Shown here in pieces: positions 24,496 to 45,389 of a stretch of DNA of 64,000 nt. Position numbers and translations under genes: made by a program. The notes below the pieces were generated by a model. The model was not told the DNA's origin, did no database searches, and saw nothing but the letters and a program-made list of their open reading frames with translations. The stretch covers positions 3,224,001 to 3,288,000 of the forward strand of contig NZ_CP139558.1 of the NCBI RefSeq assembly GCF_034262375.1. The letters run 5' to 3'. Source of the stretch: Mucilaginibacter sabulilitoris (GTDB taxonomy: Bacteria; Bacteroidota; Bacteroidia; Sphingobacteriales; Sphingobacteriaceae). Within the stretch, counting starts at the first letter, position 1. Every line of letters begins with the position of its first letter.

Positions 24496-24535
24496 GAGGG
24501 CACTGAAAAAGTAGCTTAATAAGCTGAAGTATTTG

Positions 24536-24578
24536 AAGCGAGCAATAGAAAAGGCAACTTTTACTTGGTCGCTTTTTT
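24536..24578 (+). terminator. Inward-facing terminator-like hairpin, left end of IS copy 1
   Basis: AAGCGA and TCGCTT close a long loop and are followed by TTTTTTATTTT. Weak 6-bp stem, so low confidence, but positioned to stop read-in from the upstream plus-strand gene. A short palindrome AGCTTAATAAGCT lies just before it (24513-24525). Confidence 0.35.
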
Positions 24579-24661
24579 ATTTTAGGGGATGGGGTGATTT
24601 GTTAGGGCTGATATGAGCCGAAGGTGCAATTGATGACAAAGCAGCCGCTTTAACTTGGCAC

Positions 24662-26119
24662 TTAGCTTATCAGCTTGATGATTCTCTTAAGATTTACTGT
24701 AAAGATGGCCAACGCACCCTGCATCTGCATATTTTCGATACCGTAAGCTATTGCCCGGTCATAACCATGAACGTTTTTTAGCTCACTGTTCTTCGCTTCG
24801 ACCTTATATCTGTGTTTGATACTTTCTTTATACTCTGCCGTTTCCTGGAATGCCATCTGCTGCAGGTGCATGTCTGATTTAATGCTGACCGAATAGGTTT
24901 TAGCCTTCGCGCCGGGCTTATAGCAATGCTCTCTTAATGGGCATATCTTACATTTTTCAACATCAAAGTAATAGGTGTCTACCTGATTCTCGCCGATATT
25001 CTTTTTCCCGCCGCGTGCTTTTCGGATAGCCAGATGCCCTGCCGGGCAGACGAACATGCCTGCATCCTTATTATAGTCAAATCTGTCCTCATCCTTTCTG
25101 AAACCCTGAGTGATGGAAGGGTTTAGTTTGGCTACAATCTTTATCTCTTGAGTGCTCGTCAGTTCAAGATTGTCTTTTCCTGAATAAGCTGAATCGCCGA
25201 TAATCTTTTCTACGTTGATCCCATTGTTTTGGCTGATTTCTAAAAGTTTGGGAAGCTCCGGACCATCACCTTTTTCACCCGATGTGATTACCGCAGCGGT
25301 AATGATGCGTTCCTCTGTCATCGCCAAATGGGTCTTATAACCAAAGAATGAGCTATCAGCTGATTTATGGCCGGTTTTGGCATCCTTGTCTTTAGATTTA
25401 GATACTATATAGTGCCCCTGAGTATCTGCTACTGTCTCTTTCAATAGATTCAGTTTTTCTTTTACCGCAGGTATCTGGCATAACGGTTGATCGGCTTCAA
25501 TATACTTTTCCAATGCACTGCAATAAGCCAGTTCTTTTTCCAATTCGTCGGCTGTGTTCTTTTCGGGCATGCCTGCCTTCATATCTTCATCTATCGCATA
25601 AACAGCTTTGCGGAGTAACTTTGAACGTTCCCGCAATACTTCCAATGCTGAATACGGGTTGGATCTCGACAGGGAATGGGTAGCATCAACAATAATGGAT
25701 TTTGAGCGGATGAGCCCTTTTTCAATAGCTATGGTCACCGTTTTACCAATAAGCAGGTTTAACAGATCATTATCCTTTAGCCGCAGCTTTCTGAACTTGG
25801 TCAATGAACTCGGATCGATAGTTCCTTCTTCCGGTGACATATCCAGGAAATATTTGAAAGACATATCATACTGCGAACGCTCAACAACATCTACATCTGA
25901 AACCGTATAGATCGTTTTCAACAACAGATACTTGAACATCCGTACAGGGCTTTCCGCTGCCCGGCCGTTAGTAATGCTGTATTTGCTGATCAGTTCATCA
26001 TAGATAAATGTAAAATCTACCAGGTCATTGATCTTCCGAAGAAGATTGTCTTTAGGAACGATCAGGTCATAAAGACCTGAAAACGCGCTAAACTGTATCT
26101 GTTGTTGTTGGTTAAGCAT
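24662..26119 (-). CDS. IS1182-family transposase (copy 1)
   Basis: 485 residues. N-terminal DUF772 domain (VPKDNLLRKINDLVDFTFIYDEL, with SPVRMFKYLLLKTIY), then a DDE core: Asp145 in SIIVDATHSLSR, Asp309 in IIGDSAYSGKD and Glu441 in YKVEAKNSELKN. A Cys cluster near residues 390-399 (CKICPLREHC) may bind zinc, as in related enzymes. No frameshift or stop is visible, and both ends of the element are intact, so it looks capable of transposition. Confidence 0.93.
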   Translation of the reverse strand: MLNQQQQIQFSAFSGLYDLIVPKDNLLRKINDLVDFTFIYDELISKYSITNGRAAESPVRMFKYLLLKTIYTVSDVDVVERSQYDMSFKYFLDMSPEEGTIDPSSLTKFRKLRLKDNDLLNLLIGKTVTIAIEKGLIRSKSIIVDATHSLSRSNPYSALEVLRERSKLLRKAVYAIDEDMKAGMPEKNTADELEKELAYCSALEKYIEADQPLCQIPAVKEKLNLLKETVADTQGHYIVSKSKDKDAKTGHKSADSSFFGYKTHLAMTEERIITAAVITSGEKGDGPELPKLLEISQNNGINVEKIIGDSAYSGKDNLELTSTQEIKIVAKLNPSITQGFRKDEDRFDYNKDAGMFVCPAGHLAIRKARGGKKNIGENQVDTYYFDVEKCKICPLREHCYKPGAKAKTYSVSIKSDMHLQQMAFQETAEYKESIKHRYKVEAKNSELKNVHGYDRAIAYGIENMQMQGALAIFTVNLKRIIKLIS

Positions 26120-26159
26120 CTTTAGTGTCTTTCTTTCGACACTTTAAAATACAAAAAAC

Positions 26160-26187
26160 GGGGTAGAAAACCCTCGTCTTCTACTCC
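26160..26187 (-). terminator. Inward-facing terminator, right end of IS copy 1
   Basis: GGGGTAGAA and TTCTACTCC pair with one mismatch; on the minus strand it runs into TTTTTTGTATTTT. It would stop minus-strand transcription entering from the YbjQ gene side, substituting for the split terminator. Confidence 0.55.
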
Positions 26188-26218
26188 TTTTGTCCATTTG
26201 GACTTTTTCAGTGCCCTC

Positions 26219-41694: not shown

Positions 41695-41778
41695 AGGCCT
41701 GTCATCCTGAGCTCGTCGAAGGATCGCACTTAGAGGCCACCCACCATGCTTCGACGGTGCTAAGCATGACAGCCAATG
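41695..41778. repeat. Dispersed imperfect palindrome, GTCATCCTGAG type
   Basis: Left arm CTGTCATCCTGAGCTCGTCG; the right arm read in reverse complement begins TGTCATGCTTAGCACCGTCG. It lies next to the left terminator arm of the second IS insertion. Confidence 0.75.
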
Positions 41779-41796
41779 AAAAGACAAAGCCCGGAA
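41779..41796. terminator. Left arm of the yidC terminator split by IS copy 2
   Basis: AAAAGACAAAGCCCGGAA pairs perfectly over 18 bases with 43481-43498. Restored, the hairpin would have a 7-base loop TATTATA. Confidence 0.85.
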
Positions 41797-41803
41797 TATT
41801 ATA
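41797..41803. repeat. Target-site duplication of IS copy 2, left (TATTATA)
   Basis: Same seven bases at 43474-43480. Because the sequence is nearly symmetric, the exact length of duplication (3, 5 or 7) cannot be fixed. Confidence 0.6.
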
Positions 41804-41837
41804 GTGCCTGTTGCACAAGAAAGCATGAGGGCTAAAG

Positions 41838-43373
41838 TTAACGGGCAAATGACCAAAAGGTTGTTTGCCCGTTTCTGTTGAAGGGGAGCAGAGTCGCTAT
41901 AAAGGCATTTGTAGTTCTGTGAAATCGAGTTATAAGATTATAAAACGGATTATCAAGACTCCCCGATGGTTTTGTTTTGCTATTTTTATTTGGCGAGGGC
42001 TTTAGCTTCAGTAGTTTTTTGAGGTTATAAGCAACGGCAGCCATAATCATACACTTGTTTGCCATCGCAATACCCTTTGTATTTACTTTTTTCATTCCGG
42101 TGAAATTGACCAGGGTACCTAATACCGGCTCGACGGTACCTTGCCTTACTTTCCGCATCTTCCGGCCTTTGCTGCTTTGTACACGCTGCTGCATCTGCCT
42201 GTATATATCCTTAATGGCAGACTCTCTGATGACCTTTGTACCTGTAGATGGATTGGTGCAGCTATCTTTGAGAGGACAAGTCGCGCAATCGCTAACCGAA
42301 GTTTTATAAAGCTTATGCAGGCCATTGCCTTTGGCTCTGAAATGTCGGAAGGTAAGGTATTTTCCCTGTGAACAGATATACCGGTCATGCTCTTTATCAT
42401 AGGTGAACCCTTCCCTGTCATCTTTGTAGCCTGAGCGGTTGGGTATATACCCTTCGATCTGATGTTCGATCAACGCTAAGAGCCCCGGCTCACTGCTATA
42501 GCCTGAATCCGCCAGGACTTCATGCACTGTCAATCCATTCTCTTTAAGGGTGTTTACCGTCTGCGTTAATATCTCGGGGAGACATTGCCCATCGCCTTTA
42601 TCGGCATGGAATGCTTGTATGTGGGTAATTACGTGATTTGAGGTATCCACACTCACCTGGCTTAGGTAATTTAAGGCCAATACTTTGCCCGGCTTGTAAG
42701 ATATGCGGGCATCAGTGTCGGATGGGCTTACCCTGGCTTGATTTACCGGCTTGGGTTTTTGTTTGGCAGAAGCCTGGCTGGCTGAAAGATGATCAGGCAG
42801 GTGAATGATATTATCCGAAGATAGCTTTTCAGTGTGTGCATCCAACTCCTTGCCATAGCCTGCAGCATCATCCAATATCTGACGTTCGACCACACTGGAC
42901 AGGGCGGCATTGGCTTTCACCAGCACACTATCTACAGCCTGTCGCCGACCAGCGACCAAACCGTTATCGATACATTGTTTCAGTACCGTTTTGAAAATGG
43001 CAGTAAACGTTTCCTCCCCGTAAAGTTGGCGTGTCCGGCTCAGGGTGGAATGCCATGGTAGTTCTTCATCCAGGTCATAGCCGATAAAATAAAGAATATC
43101 CATGCGCATCCGTGATGTGATGATAATACGTCGGTCGCTATTCATGTTTTCCAGATAACCCACCAGCATCAGTTTAAAGAACACGACAGGGTCAATGCTC
43201 TTTTGGCCTTCGTTGCCATAATACTTCGCGGTCGAATCATAAAGGAAAGAGAGATCAAGTATGCTTCTTAACCGCCTGTAGAAATTGTCAGCCGGAACGT
43301 AATCGGAAAGCTGAAATCGGATGAATAGCTTCTCCTGGTAATCTTTTTTGCCTTGCATGCCTTTAATATACAA
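41838..43373 (-). CDS. IS1182-family-like transposase (copy 2)
   Basis: 511 residues (a Met five codons downstream, MQGKKDYQEK, at 43358 is also a possible start). N-terminal DUF772 pattern (YVPADNFYRRLRSILDLSFLYD, KSIDPVVFFKLMLVGYLENMNSDRR) and a DDE core with Asp148 in QAVDSVLVKA, Asp289 in VLADSGYSSE and Glu415 in RQGTVEPVLGTL. A Cys pair with a third Cys (CATCPLKDSC) lies between the second and third acidic residues. Reading frame and both element ends are intact. It is clearly different in sequence from the first transposase. Confidence 0.92.
   Translation of the reverse strand: MYIKGMQGKKDYQEKLFIRFQLSDYVPADNFYRRLRSILDLSFLYDSTAKYYGNEGQKSIDPVVFFKLMLVGYLENMNSDRRIIITSRMRMDILYFIGYDLDEELPWHSTLSRTRQLYGEETFTAIFKTVLKQCIDNGLVAGRRQAVDSVLVKANAALSSVVERQILDDAAGYGKELDAHTEKLSSDNIIHLPDHLSASQASAKQKPKPVNQARVSPSDTDARISYKPGKVLALNYLSQVSVDTSNHVITHIQAFHADKGDGQCLPEILTQTVNTLKENGLTVHEVLADSGYSSEPGLLALIEHQIEGYIPNRSGYKDDREGFTYDKEHDRYICSQGKYLTFRHFRAKGNGLHKLYKTSVSDCATCPLKDSCTNPSTGTKVIRESAIKDIYRQMQQRVQSSKGRKMRKVRQGTVEPVLGTLVNFTGMKKVNTKGIAMANKCMIMAAVAYNLKKLLKLKPSPNKNSKTKPSGSLDNPFYNLITRFHRTTNAFIATLLPFNRNGQTTFWSFAR
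41840..41873 (-). terminator. Hairpin at the transposase 3' end in IS copy 2
   Basis: AACGGGCAAA and TTTGCCCGTT form a perfect 10-bp stem with a 14-base loop that overlaps the last codons of the transposase. It may terminate transposase transcription before the host sequence. Confidence 0.5.
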
Positions 43374-43405
43374 AACAAATAGCTGATTAACAAATACTTA
43401 TAAGA

Positions 43406-43442
43406 AAAAAACACAATTGCCAAATTAGCAATTGTGTTTTTT
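43406..43442 (-). terminator. Inward-facing terminator, right end of IS copy 2
   Basis: AAAAAACACAATTGC and GCAATTGTGTTTTTT pair perfectly over 15 bases around seven. On the minus strand it runs into a T-run, so it would stop transcription coming from yidC before it reaches the transposase. Confidence 0.7.
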
Positions 43443-43473
43443 GAAAGACCGCTGTTAGTTGTGCAACAGGCAC

Positions 43474-43480
43474 TATTATA
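43474..43480. repeat. Target-site duplication of IS copy 2, right (TATTATA)
   Basis: Immediately outside the right end. Confidence 0.6.
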
Positions 43481-43498
43481 TTCCGGGCTTTGTCTTTT
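43481..43498. terminator. Right arm of the yidC terminator split by IS copy 2
   Basis: TTCCGGGCTTTGTCTTTT, complementary to 41779-41796. Confidence 0.85.
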
Positions 43499-43556: not shown

Positions 43557-45389
43557 CTATTTCTTCTTAGCAGCTTGTGCCTGTTGCTGACGCATCATTT
43601 CTTCCATGCGTGCTCCAAAACCTGACTTTTTCTTTTTCGGATCATCAGGTTTCTTTTTGTTTTCCTGTATCTGGGCATGTATCTTTTTATCATCAACCAT
43701 GAATTTAATCAGGTATTGCTGTAAGAAGGTAAGCATGTTAGCCAGGAAGTAATAGTAGTTCAAACCTGATGGATAGCTGTTCAATGTAGCCAGGAATATG
43801 ATAGGAGTAATGTAGCCAATATATTTCATCTGGCCGGTAGCACCCGAAATCTGGTTATTGAAATAAGTATATATCAATGTTGATATAGTCATCAGCAAAC
43901 ACATTAAACTGATGTGATCACCAATTAAAGGAATGTTCGGGAAAGTAACTACCGCGTCATAGGTCGACAGGTCATGCATCCACAAAAAGCTTTCACCGCG
44001 CAACTCAAATAAGCTTGGGAAAAAACGGAAGAACGCGATCACGATAGGCATTTGAATGAGCAATGGTAAACAACCACCTAACGGGTTTACGCCGGCTTTT
44101 TTGTAAAGCTTTAAATATTCCTGTTGTAACAGGGTAGGATTATCCTCACCAACTTTAGTTTTAATTTCATCCATTTCCGGCTTTAGCACACGCATTTTGG
44201 CCATTGACAGATATGATTTGTAGGTAAGTGGCGATAACACCAGCTTAAGCACTATAGTTAATGCTAAAATGATAAGTCCGTAATTCCAGTTAAACTGTTT
44301 CAGGAAGTTAAATACCGGTAATACAGCAAACTGGTTTATATATTTTAATGGTCCCCAGCCCAGGTCTACCAGCTTTTGCAGATCATTACCCTGAGCTTTT
44401 AAAGTAGAATAGCGGTTTGGTCCAAAATAAAATTCTAATGGTACCGTGCCGTCAGTAGCACGCGCAATGGTCAGGTCTGCTTTCATTTGCTTAACATCGG
44501 CCGAATCGGTAACATCAGTACTTACAGCTAAGTTTGATTTGCTGATGCCGCCTTTGGAGATCAGTACGTTAGAAAAGAAGTGCTGCTTAAAGGCAACCCA
44601 TACCATTTTTTTATCACTGATCTCTTTTTGGTCATCTTTAGATACGCTCAGATAATCATCGTGATTTTCGGTATTATAATAATATACTGTTGAGTACTGA
44701 CGCTCTTGTTTAATATCTTTTTCCTGTTTGTGCAGGCTGGCTGCCCAGTTTAGGTTAACAGAACTACTGTTATTGATAACGCCATCAAGCCCGGTAGGTT
44801 TAATGGTAAGGCCCAGTTTATAGCCGGTACCTTTTAAGCTATACACATAATCAATATACTGGGTAGCGCTGTAGCTTAAACGCAACGTAACTGAGGCCGA
44901 ATCATTTTCGGCAACTTTAAGTTCGGGTGCGGTTGATGTAAAGTAATACTCATCGGTATTGATCTTTTTTTCGCCGGCAGAAAAAACTAAACCAAAATGA
45001 GTTTGAGGGCCGCTAAAAAGTACCAGCGGTTTTTTATCAAAAGTTTTAAAGTTTTTCAGTTCAACCGAAGCAACTTTACCACCACGTGTGCTTAGTTTTA
45101 CAATCAGGTCCTTATTCTCCAGTGTTACCAGCTTCTCGCTGCCTATTGAGGCTGCACCAAAAGGGCTTCTTAAAGTGGCCGAATCTGCTACTGTCGGTTT
45201 ACCGTTAGCGGTATCAGCTTTTGCTGCAGCAGGTGTACTTGCTTTGGCCAGACCAGCCTTTTTCAAAGAGTCCTGTTGCTGTACCAGGCGTTCTTTTTTA
45301 AGTTCGGCGTCAGATGGCTTCAGGAAGTAAATTGAGCCAGCTATAATAGCCATAATCAGGAATAATCCTGTAAATGTATTTTTATCCAT
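43557..45389 (-). CDS. yidC: Membrane protein insertase YidC
   Basis: Inserts and folds inner-membrane proteins, alone or with the Sec translocon. 610 residues with the Gram-negative layout: an N-terminal membrane anchor (residues 5-22), a large periplasmic beta-domain (about 90-350) and a C-terminal five-helix insertase core beginning WNYGLIILALTIVLKLVLSPLTYKSYLSMAKM. The C-terminus is a basic tail (KKKSGFGARMEEMMRQQQAQAAKKK) typical of Bacteroidota YidC. It follows pyrG and an SRPBCC gene on the same strand. Its terminator is split by the second IS. Confidence 0.97.
   Translation of the reverse strand: MDKNTFTGLFLIMAIIAGSIYFLKPSDAELKKERLVQQQDSLKKAGLAKASTPAAAKADTANGKPTVADSATLRSPFGAASIGSEKLVTLENKDLIVKLSTRGGKVASVELKNFKTFDKKPLVLFSGPQTHFGLVFSAGEKKINTDEYYFTSTAPELKVAENDSASVTLRLSYSATQYIDYVYSLKGTGYKLGLTIKPTGLDGVINNSSSVNLNWAASLHKQEKDIKQERQYSTVYYYNTENHDDYLSVSKDDQKEISDKKMVWVAFKQHFFSNVLISKGGISKSNLAVSTDVTDSADVKQMKADLTIARATDGTVPLEFYFGPNRYSTLKAQGNDLQKLVDLGWGPLKYINQFAVLPVFNFLKQFNWNYGLIILALTIVLKLVLSPLTYKSYLSMAKMRVLKPEMDEIKTKVGEDNPTLLQQEYLKLYKKAGVNPLGGCLPLLIQMPIVIAFFRFFPSLFELRGESFLWMHDLSTYDAVVTFPNIPLIGDHISLMCLLMTISTLIYTYFNNQISGATGQMKYIGYITPIIFLATLNSYPSGLNYYYFLANMLTFLQQYLIKFMVDDKKIHAQIQENKKKPDDPKKKKSGFGARMEEMMRQQQAQAAKKK

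Follow-up and report, generated by a model that had tools for sequence, protein, structure and literature searches.

An IS1182-family insertion sequence in the predicted yidC terminator hairpin of Mucilaginibacter sabulilitoris: a case for dyad-centred targeting

An insertion sequence (IS) of the IS1182 family splits the loop of the predicted yidC terminator in Mucilaginibacter sabulilitoris, and the evidence supports terminator-loop targeting as a real property of the element. The IS lies in the stretch of 64,000 nucleotides analysed here and called the window (contig NZ_CP139558.1, positions 3,224,001 to 3,288,000). Its transposase probably reads the symmetric hairpin and thereby chose the apex, leaving a duplication centred on the dyad, while terminator-like hairpins carried by the IS appear to make up for the loss. 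The features concerned are as follows, in window coordinates.

24496-26218 (minus strand): lineage B IS1182 element, target duplication CTATTTAA in a terminator loop
39373-39569 (no strand): MITE, 197 bp, with lineage B ends; its target duplication GTAATAGAC is the loop of a 17-bp stem
41779-41796 (no strand): left arm of the split hairpin, AAAAGACAAAGCCCGGAA, perfect complement of 43481-43498
41797-41803 (no strand): left-hand TATTATA of the 7-bp target duplication (hairpin apex), identical to 43474-43480
41804-43473 (minus strand): insertion sequence, IS1182 family, 1670 bp, with the same boundaries but different flanks in sister copies L002 and L003
41804-41818 (plus strand): terminal inverted repeat, 15 bp, GTGCCTGTTGCACAA, transposase-distal end
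41838-43358 (minus strand): transposase, likely ATG start at 43358
41840-41873 (plus strand): second hairpin, 36 nt inside the distal end, overlapping the 3' end of the transposase gene; RNA fold -23.7 kcal/mol, z -6.0
43406-43442 (minus strand): terminator-like hairpin with a T tract inside the IS, 31 nt from the proximal end; RNA fold -18.8 kcal/mol, z -7.3
43459-43473 (minus strand): terminal inverted repeat, transposase-proximal end
43474-43480 (no strand): right-hand TATTATA of the target duplication, identical to 41797-41803
43481-43498 (no strand): right arm of the split hairpin, TTCCGGGCTTTGTCTTTT, a perfect 18-bp arm
43557-45389 (minus strand): yidC, to which the split terminator belongs (open reading frame, named from its sequence and the original annotation)

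As originally predicted, the IS is found between perfect 18-bp arms. It is 1670 bp long and directly bounded by the duplicated apex, and both arms and the apex are retained after insertion. With DNA parameters, the restored site, AAAAGACAAAGCCCGGAA-TATTATA-TTCCGGGCTTTGTCTTTT, has a folding energy of -22.5 kcal/mol; it takes the form of a Rho-independent terminator, with a G+C-rich stem and an arm ending in TCTTTT; 58 nt separate the yidC stop codon from the hairpin. In 28 of 29 congeners without an IS at the locus, a hairpin, mostly of terminator type, is found 25-149 nt 3' of yidC. No identical empty site was found in a very close relative. At 41699-41772 the motif GTCATCCTGAG...CGAAGGATC adjoins the IS, and a similar motif flanks L266, a copy of another IS1182 lineage of the genome; the two may be instances of a dispersed intergenic repeat.

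The transposase matches NF033551 (IS1182) over residues 10-457 with 316.6 bits against a cutoff of 270 (E 3e-94), together with the Pfam models DDE_Tnp_1_6 and DUF772. Its open reading frame opens at a TTG (43373), and homologues begin with MQGKKDYQ. A full-length IS1182-type transposase in a single open reading frame of about 1.5 kb, enclosed by terminal inverted repeats in an element of about 1.7 kb, places the IS in this family. The original prediction assigned this IS (lineage A) and the window's other IS (lineage B) to separate transposase lineages; at 25% identity they are indeed separate, yet both belong to IS1182, a family with published hairpin targeting. It is true, as also predicted, that all three mobile elements of the window lie in terminator loops, but they represent two independent lineages, the MITE having lineage B ends.

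Besides the window copy (L001), the genome contains three more complete copies and one truncated copy of the lineage A element. The flanks of the complete sister copies are as follows.

L002: acaaagccccgat-ATTTCT-atcggggctttgt, duplication ATTTCT, 6 bp
L003: aagtaaagccctgcc-GGTATAAC-cgcagggctttactt, duplication GGTATAAC, 8 bp
L004: aacaacaaaagcccggc-AGTT-gccgggcttttgttgtt, duplication AGTT, 4 bp

Copies in non-hairpin sites, which would have counted against the original prediction, did not turn up: all four complete copies of the genome lie in terminator hairpins, and half of such a hairpin adjoins the fifth, truncated copy. The restored sites of all four reach a stem score of at least 13, a score found at 43 of 398,600 control positions with any loop of 4-9 (400 kb from this genome, sampled as 20 stretches of 20 kb, from which the terminator density was taken). 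A random position would thus qualify about once in 10^4, and four out of four corresponds to a chance of about 1e-16 if the insertions are independent, so that the targeting goes far beyond chance, as had been supposed. Regarding the duplication, its length was predicted to be ambiguous by symmetry; this holds for the window copy alone, where 7, 2 (TA) or 0 bp are permitted, but the ambiguity is settled by the sister copies, whose unambiguous 6, 8 and 4 bp make 7 bp the sensible reading. The elements L001, L002 and L003 are 99-100% identical and carry duplications of 7, 6 and 8 bp, respectively. L003 (positions 5216675-5218342 of the genome) is 2 bp shorter, with its transposase frame broken in two, and was probably inactivated after its insertion.

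Hairpin targeting is not confined to this element. Lineage B has 16 complete copies in the genome, 12 of which have a clear centred or near-centred hairpin and a duplication of 8-11 bp, while most of the remaining copies still have recognisable half-terminators; the MITE is present in eight copies, six with duplications of 8-9 bp in hairpins. Among 37 distinct complete relatives of the lineage A element, drawn from its own genome, congeners and other Bacteroidota, a hairpin is centred at most 1 nt from the duplication in 26 restored sites, as compared with 134 of 2220 control sites. The IS ends in distant relatives were found through conserved end patterns, a simple inverted-repeat scan being mostly unsuccessful. 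In 44 sites with a stem of at least 8, covering lineages A and B and the MITE in the own genome and in relatives, the centre of the duplication falls exactly on the hairpin axis in 35 (10.9 on average in permutations that shuffled the lengths, p<1e-4), and the parity of the duplication length, odd or even, matches that of the hairpin in 39. Over the pooled sites, longer apparent loops do not come with longer duplications (Spearman -0.15). A strict equation of duplication and loop was accordingly rejected; it is exact for some copies only, and a clean duplication is absent in others. Since duplication length does not track loop size, the rule is dyad symmetry and not loop length. The target preference is narrower than 'terminator loops', the cut being centred on the dyad, and broader in taxonomy: relatives show it too, as does this genome's IS4-family element.

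Most likely, the transposase recognises a symmetric hairpin, either as an extruded cruciform or as a folded single strand. The two IS ends would be joined at axis-symmetric points on opposite strands, near the stem-loop junctions, and repair would then duplicate the apex and leave the arms intact. Such a course would place the duplication on the dyad and allow its length to vary (4-8 bp), even among near-identical copies. Insertion parts the two halves of the host terminator, a loss for which the inner terminator-like hairpins appear to compensate; these would also shield the transposase from read-through.

The proximal inner hairpin faces transcription arriving from yidC and has a counterpart of different sequence at the corresponding position in L004; the distal one has a weak T tract. 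All nine terminator-targeting lineage A elements have a proximal inner hairpin 30-33 nt inside the end, with sequences unrelated between members. A strong one occurs in none of 28 lineage A relatives with other targets, and the figure for interior controls is 17 of 424. On the transposase tree, this link between target and inner terminator comes from few independent origins (two supported pairs, too few for a phylogenetic sign test). In lineage B, inner hairpins occur at both ends in all 16 copies, set 26-28 nt in from one end and 37-39 nt in from the other, and face incoming transcription. From sequence, we infer that the inner hairpins terminate yidC transcripts and that yidC thus gains from the element a new terminator, some 115 nt beyond its stop codon. 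We read the terminator-targeting elements as performing a terminator-for-terminator exchange, a function predicted from their sequences.

It is possible, though the less probable reading, that the inner hairpins serve solely to block host read-through into the transposase and that the replacement of the terminator is a by-product. The proximal hairpin does separate the transposase start from the IS end, and stopping incoming transcription is a general theme among IS elements. Against this, lineage B has strong terminators at its distal end too, and the lineage A relatives on other palindromes lack inner terminators although their transposases need the same protection.

As to target recognition, structure would be read rather than duplex sequence. 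That the transposase instead recognises a palindromic duplex through two half-sites, without hairpin extrusion, is unlikely, although part of the evidence favours it. Distant Dyadobacter relatives use a short duplex-like palindrome, and a core AAAGCCC/GGGCTTT is common to many stems of the own genome. The stems are otherwise diverse in sequence (CCCTCTCTTCCG, GCCCGGC, GTTGGT and others), and their arms are variably spaced, so that the helical phase changes; both count against duplex recognition. The Dyadobacter clade accounts for most of the exceptions among the relatives: in L070, L077-L079, L081 and L110 the target is AAAC[GGTG/CACC]GTTT, with a fixed 4-bp duplication and no strong inner terminators. 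Other relatives have sites of yet other kinds. Flavobacteriaceae loci within L056-L122 (43-48% identity) share a conserved insertion site, TTATANNCATT|NATTGTTRT, which is not a hairpin, and in congeners a further branch of the element (L019-L025, L030, L038-L040) occupies the loops of hairpins of the form CCCTCTCTTCCG...CGGAAGAGAGGG; these resemble a palindrome repeated in intergenic DNA of the genus.

Random insertion followed by selection, with harmless intergenic copies alone surviving, is very improbable. Terminator sites are harmless and terminator-like sites are common in intergenic DNA, as such a filter would require, but neutrality cannot account for duplications centred on the dyad with nucleotide precision in 35 of 44 copies, and two IS3-type copies in the same genome lie outside hairpins; dyad centring led us to reject neutral selection as the sole cause. 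That the arms are long terminal repeats of the element and not a host terminator was likewise rejected and has next to no probability left: the inverted repeat at the window copy does continue for 40 nt with one mismatch, but the part common to the sister copies extends as far as GTGCCTG while their arms are different, and in congeners the corresponding position downstream of yidC is taken by hairpin terminators.

Further IS lineages of the same genome bear on how general the preference for structured, hairpin-forming sites is. An IS4-family element (NF033592, 1.5e-43) of 1397 bp is present in four copies (L245-L248) sited in terminator hairpins; two have clean 9-bp apex duplications, and the ends of the element themselves fold as terminator-like hairpins. 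A third IS1182 lineage (L266, L268-L273) has 6-7 copies in the genome, and related multi-copy elements (L332-L371) are found in eight further genomes from the same genus or family. It has an A tract on one side and a T tract on the other, most copies lacking a duplication and some having long palindromic flanks, and its ends are complete terminator hairpins in several of those genomes. By analogy, this suggests a replacement of the stem-loop as in IS1272. The two complete copies of the IS3-type element, a small negative control, are not in hairpins and have no terminal terminators. The chances are about even that lineage A, lineage B with its MITE, the third IS1182 lineage (which may replace the stem-loop) and the IS4-family element specialised independently on terminators, read as structure, and that, with terminators carried at the ends of the elements, each insertion exchanges one terminator for two.

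Group IIC introns also use terminator hairpins as landing sites, as does the window IS, but differ in being retroelements, which use RNA-directed reverse splicing and enter downstream of the stem. Closer parallels are IS1272 and TnSha1 of staphylococci, members of the same transposase family with hairpin targets that share no sequence (PMC4923244; PMC5678879), several of which were confirmed as transcription terminators by RNA-seq (PMC4923244). The window element resembles them in having a hairpin target of no fixed sequence. IS1272, in contrast, deletes part or all of the stem-loop and joins blunt, without duplication, and the TnSha1 cases likewise lose the stem-loop and show no duplication (PMC4923244; PMC5678879), whereas the four complete copies described here have duplications of 7, 6, 8 and 4 bp and the window copy keeps both arms and apex. 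Duplication of the loop was drawn as a hypothetical pathway c (Fig 13 in PMC5678879), to which the symmetric end-joining proposed here would correspond. That some IS1182 members target palindromes is attributed to a 2015 review by Siguier and colleagues, as cited in PMC5678879 and PMC4923244. IS elements in REP palindromes (PMC1525189) and ISPpu9 (PMC8450116) are further mobile elements selecting a palindromic intergenic target; REPs are sequence repeats, unlike the hairpins of unrelated sequence considered here. In the open-licence literature, no description was found of a terminator insertion that duplicates the loop, nor, for the IS1182 family, of variable dyad-centred duplications or of paired inner terminators. 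Terminator-hairpin targeting by IS1182 elements is known; as far as the open literature searched shows, what is new is an apex duplication of variable length centred on the dyad, together with the pairing of inner terminators.

The length of a target duplication is normally taken as a fixed property of the transposase. Near-identical copies with 6, 7 and 8 bp on the hairpin axis point to a transposase guided by DNA structure, and the copies form a ready natural test set for structure-guided transposition. If true, a strategy of exchanging terminator for terminator would make transposition nearly harmless. If the exchange is real, it explains the high copy numbers of such elements in gene-dense genomes and offers a sequence-independent route by which DNA could be placed at gene 3' ends.
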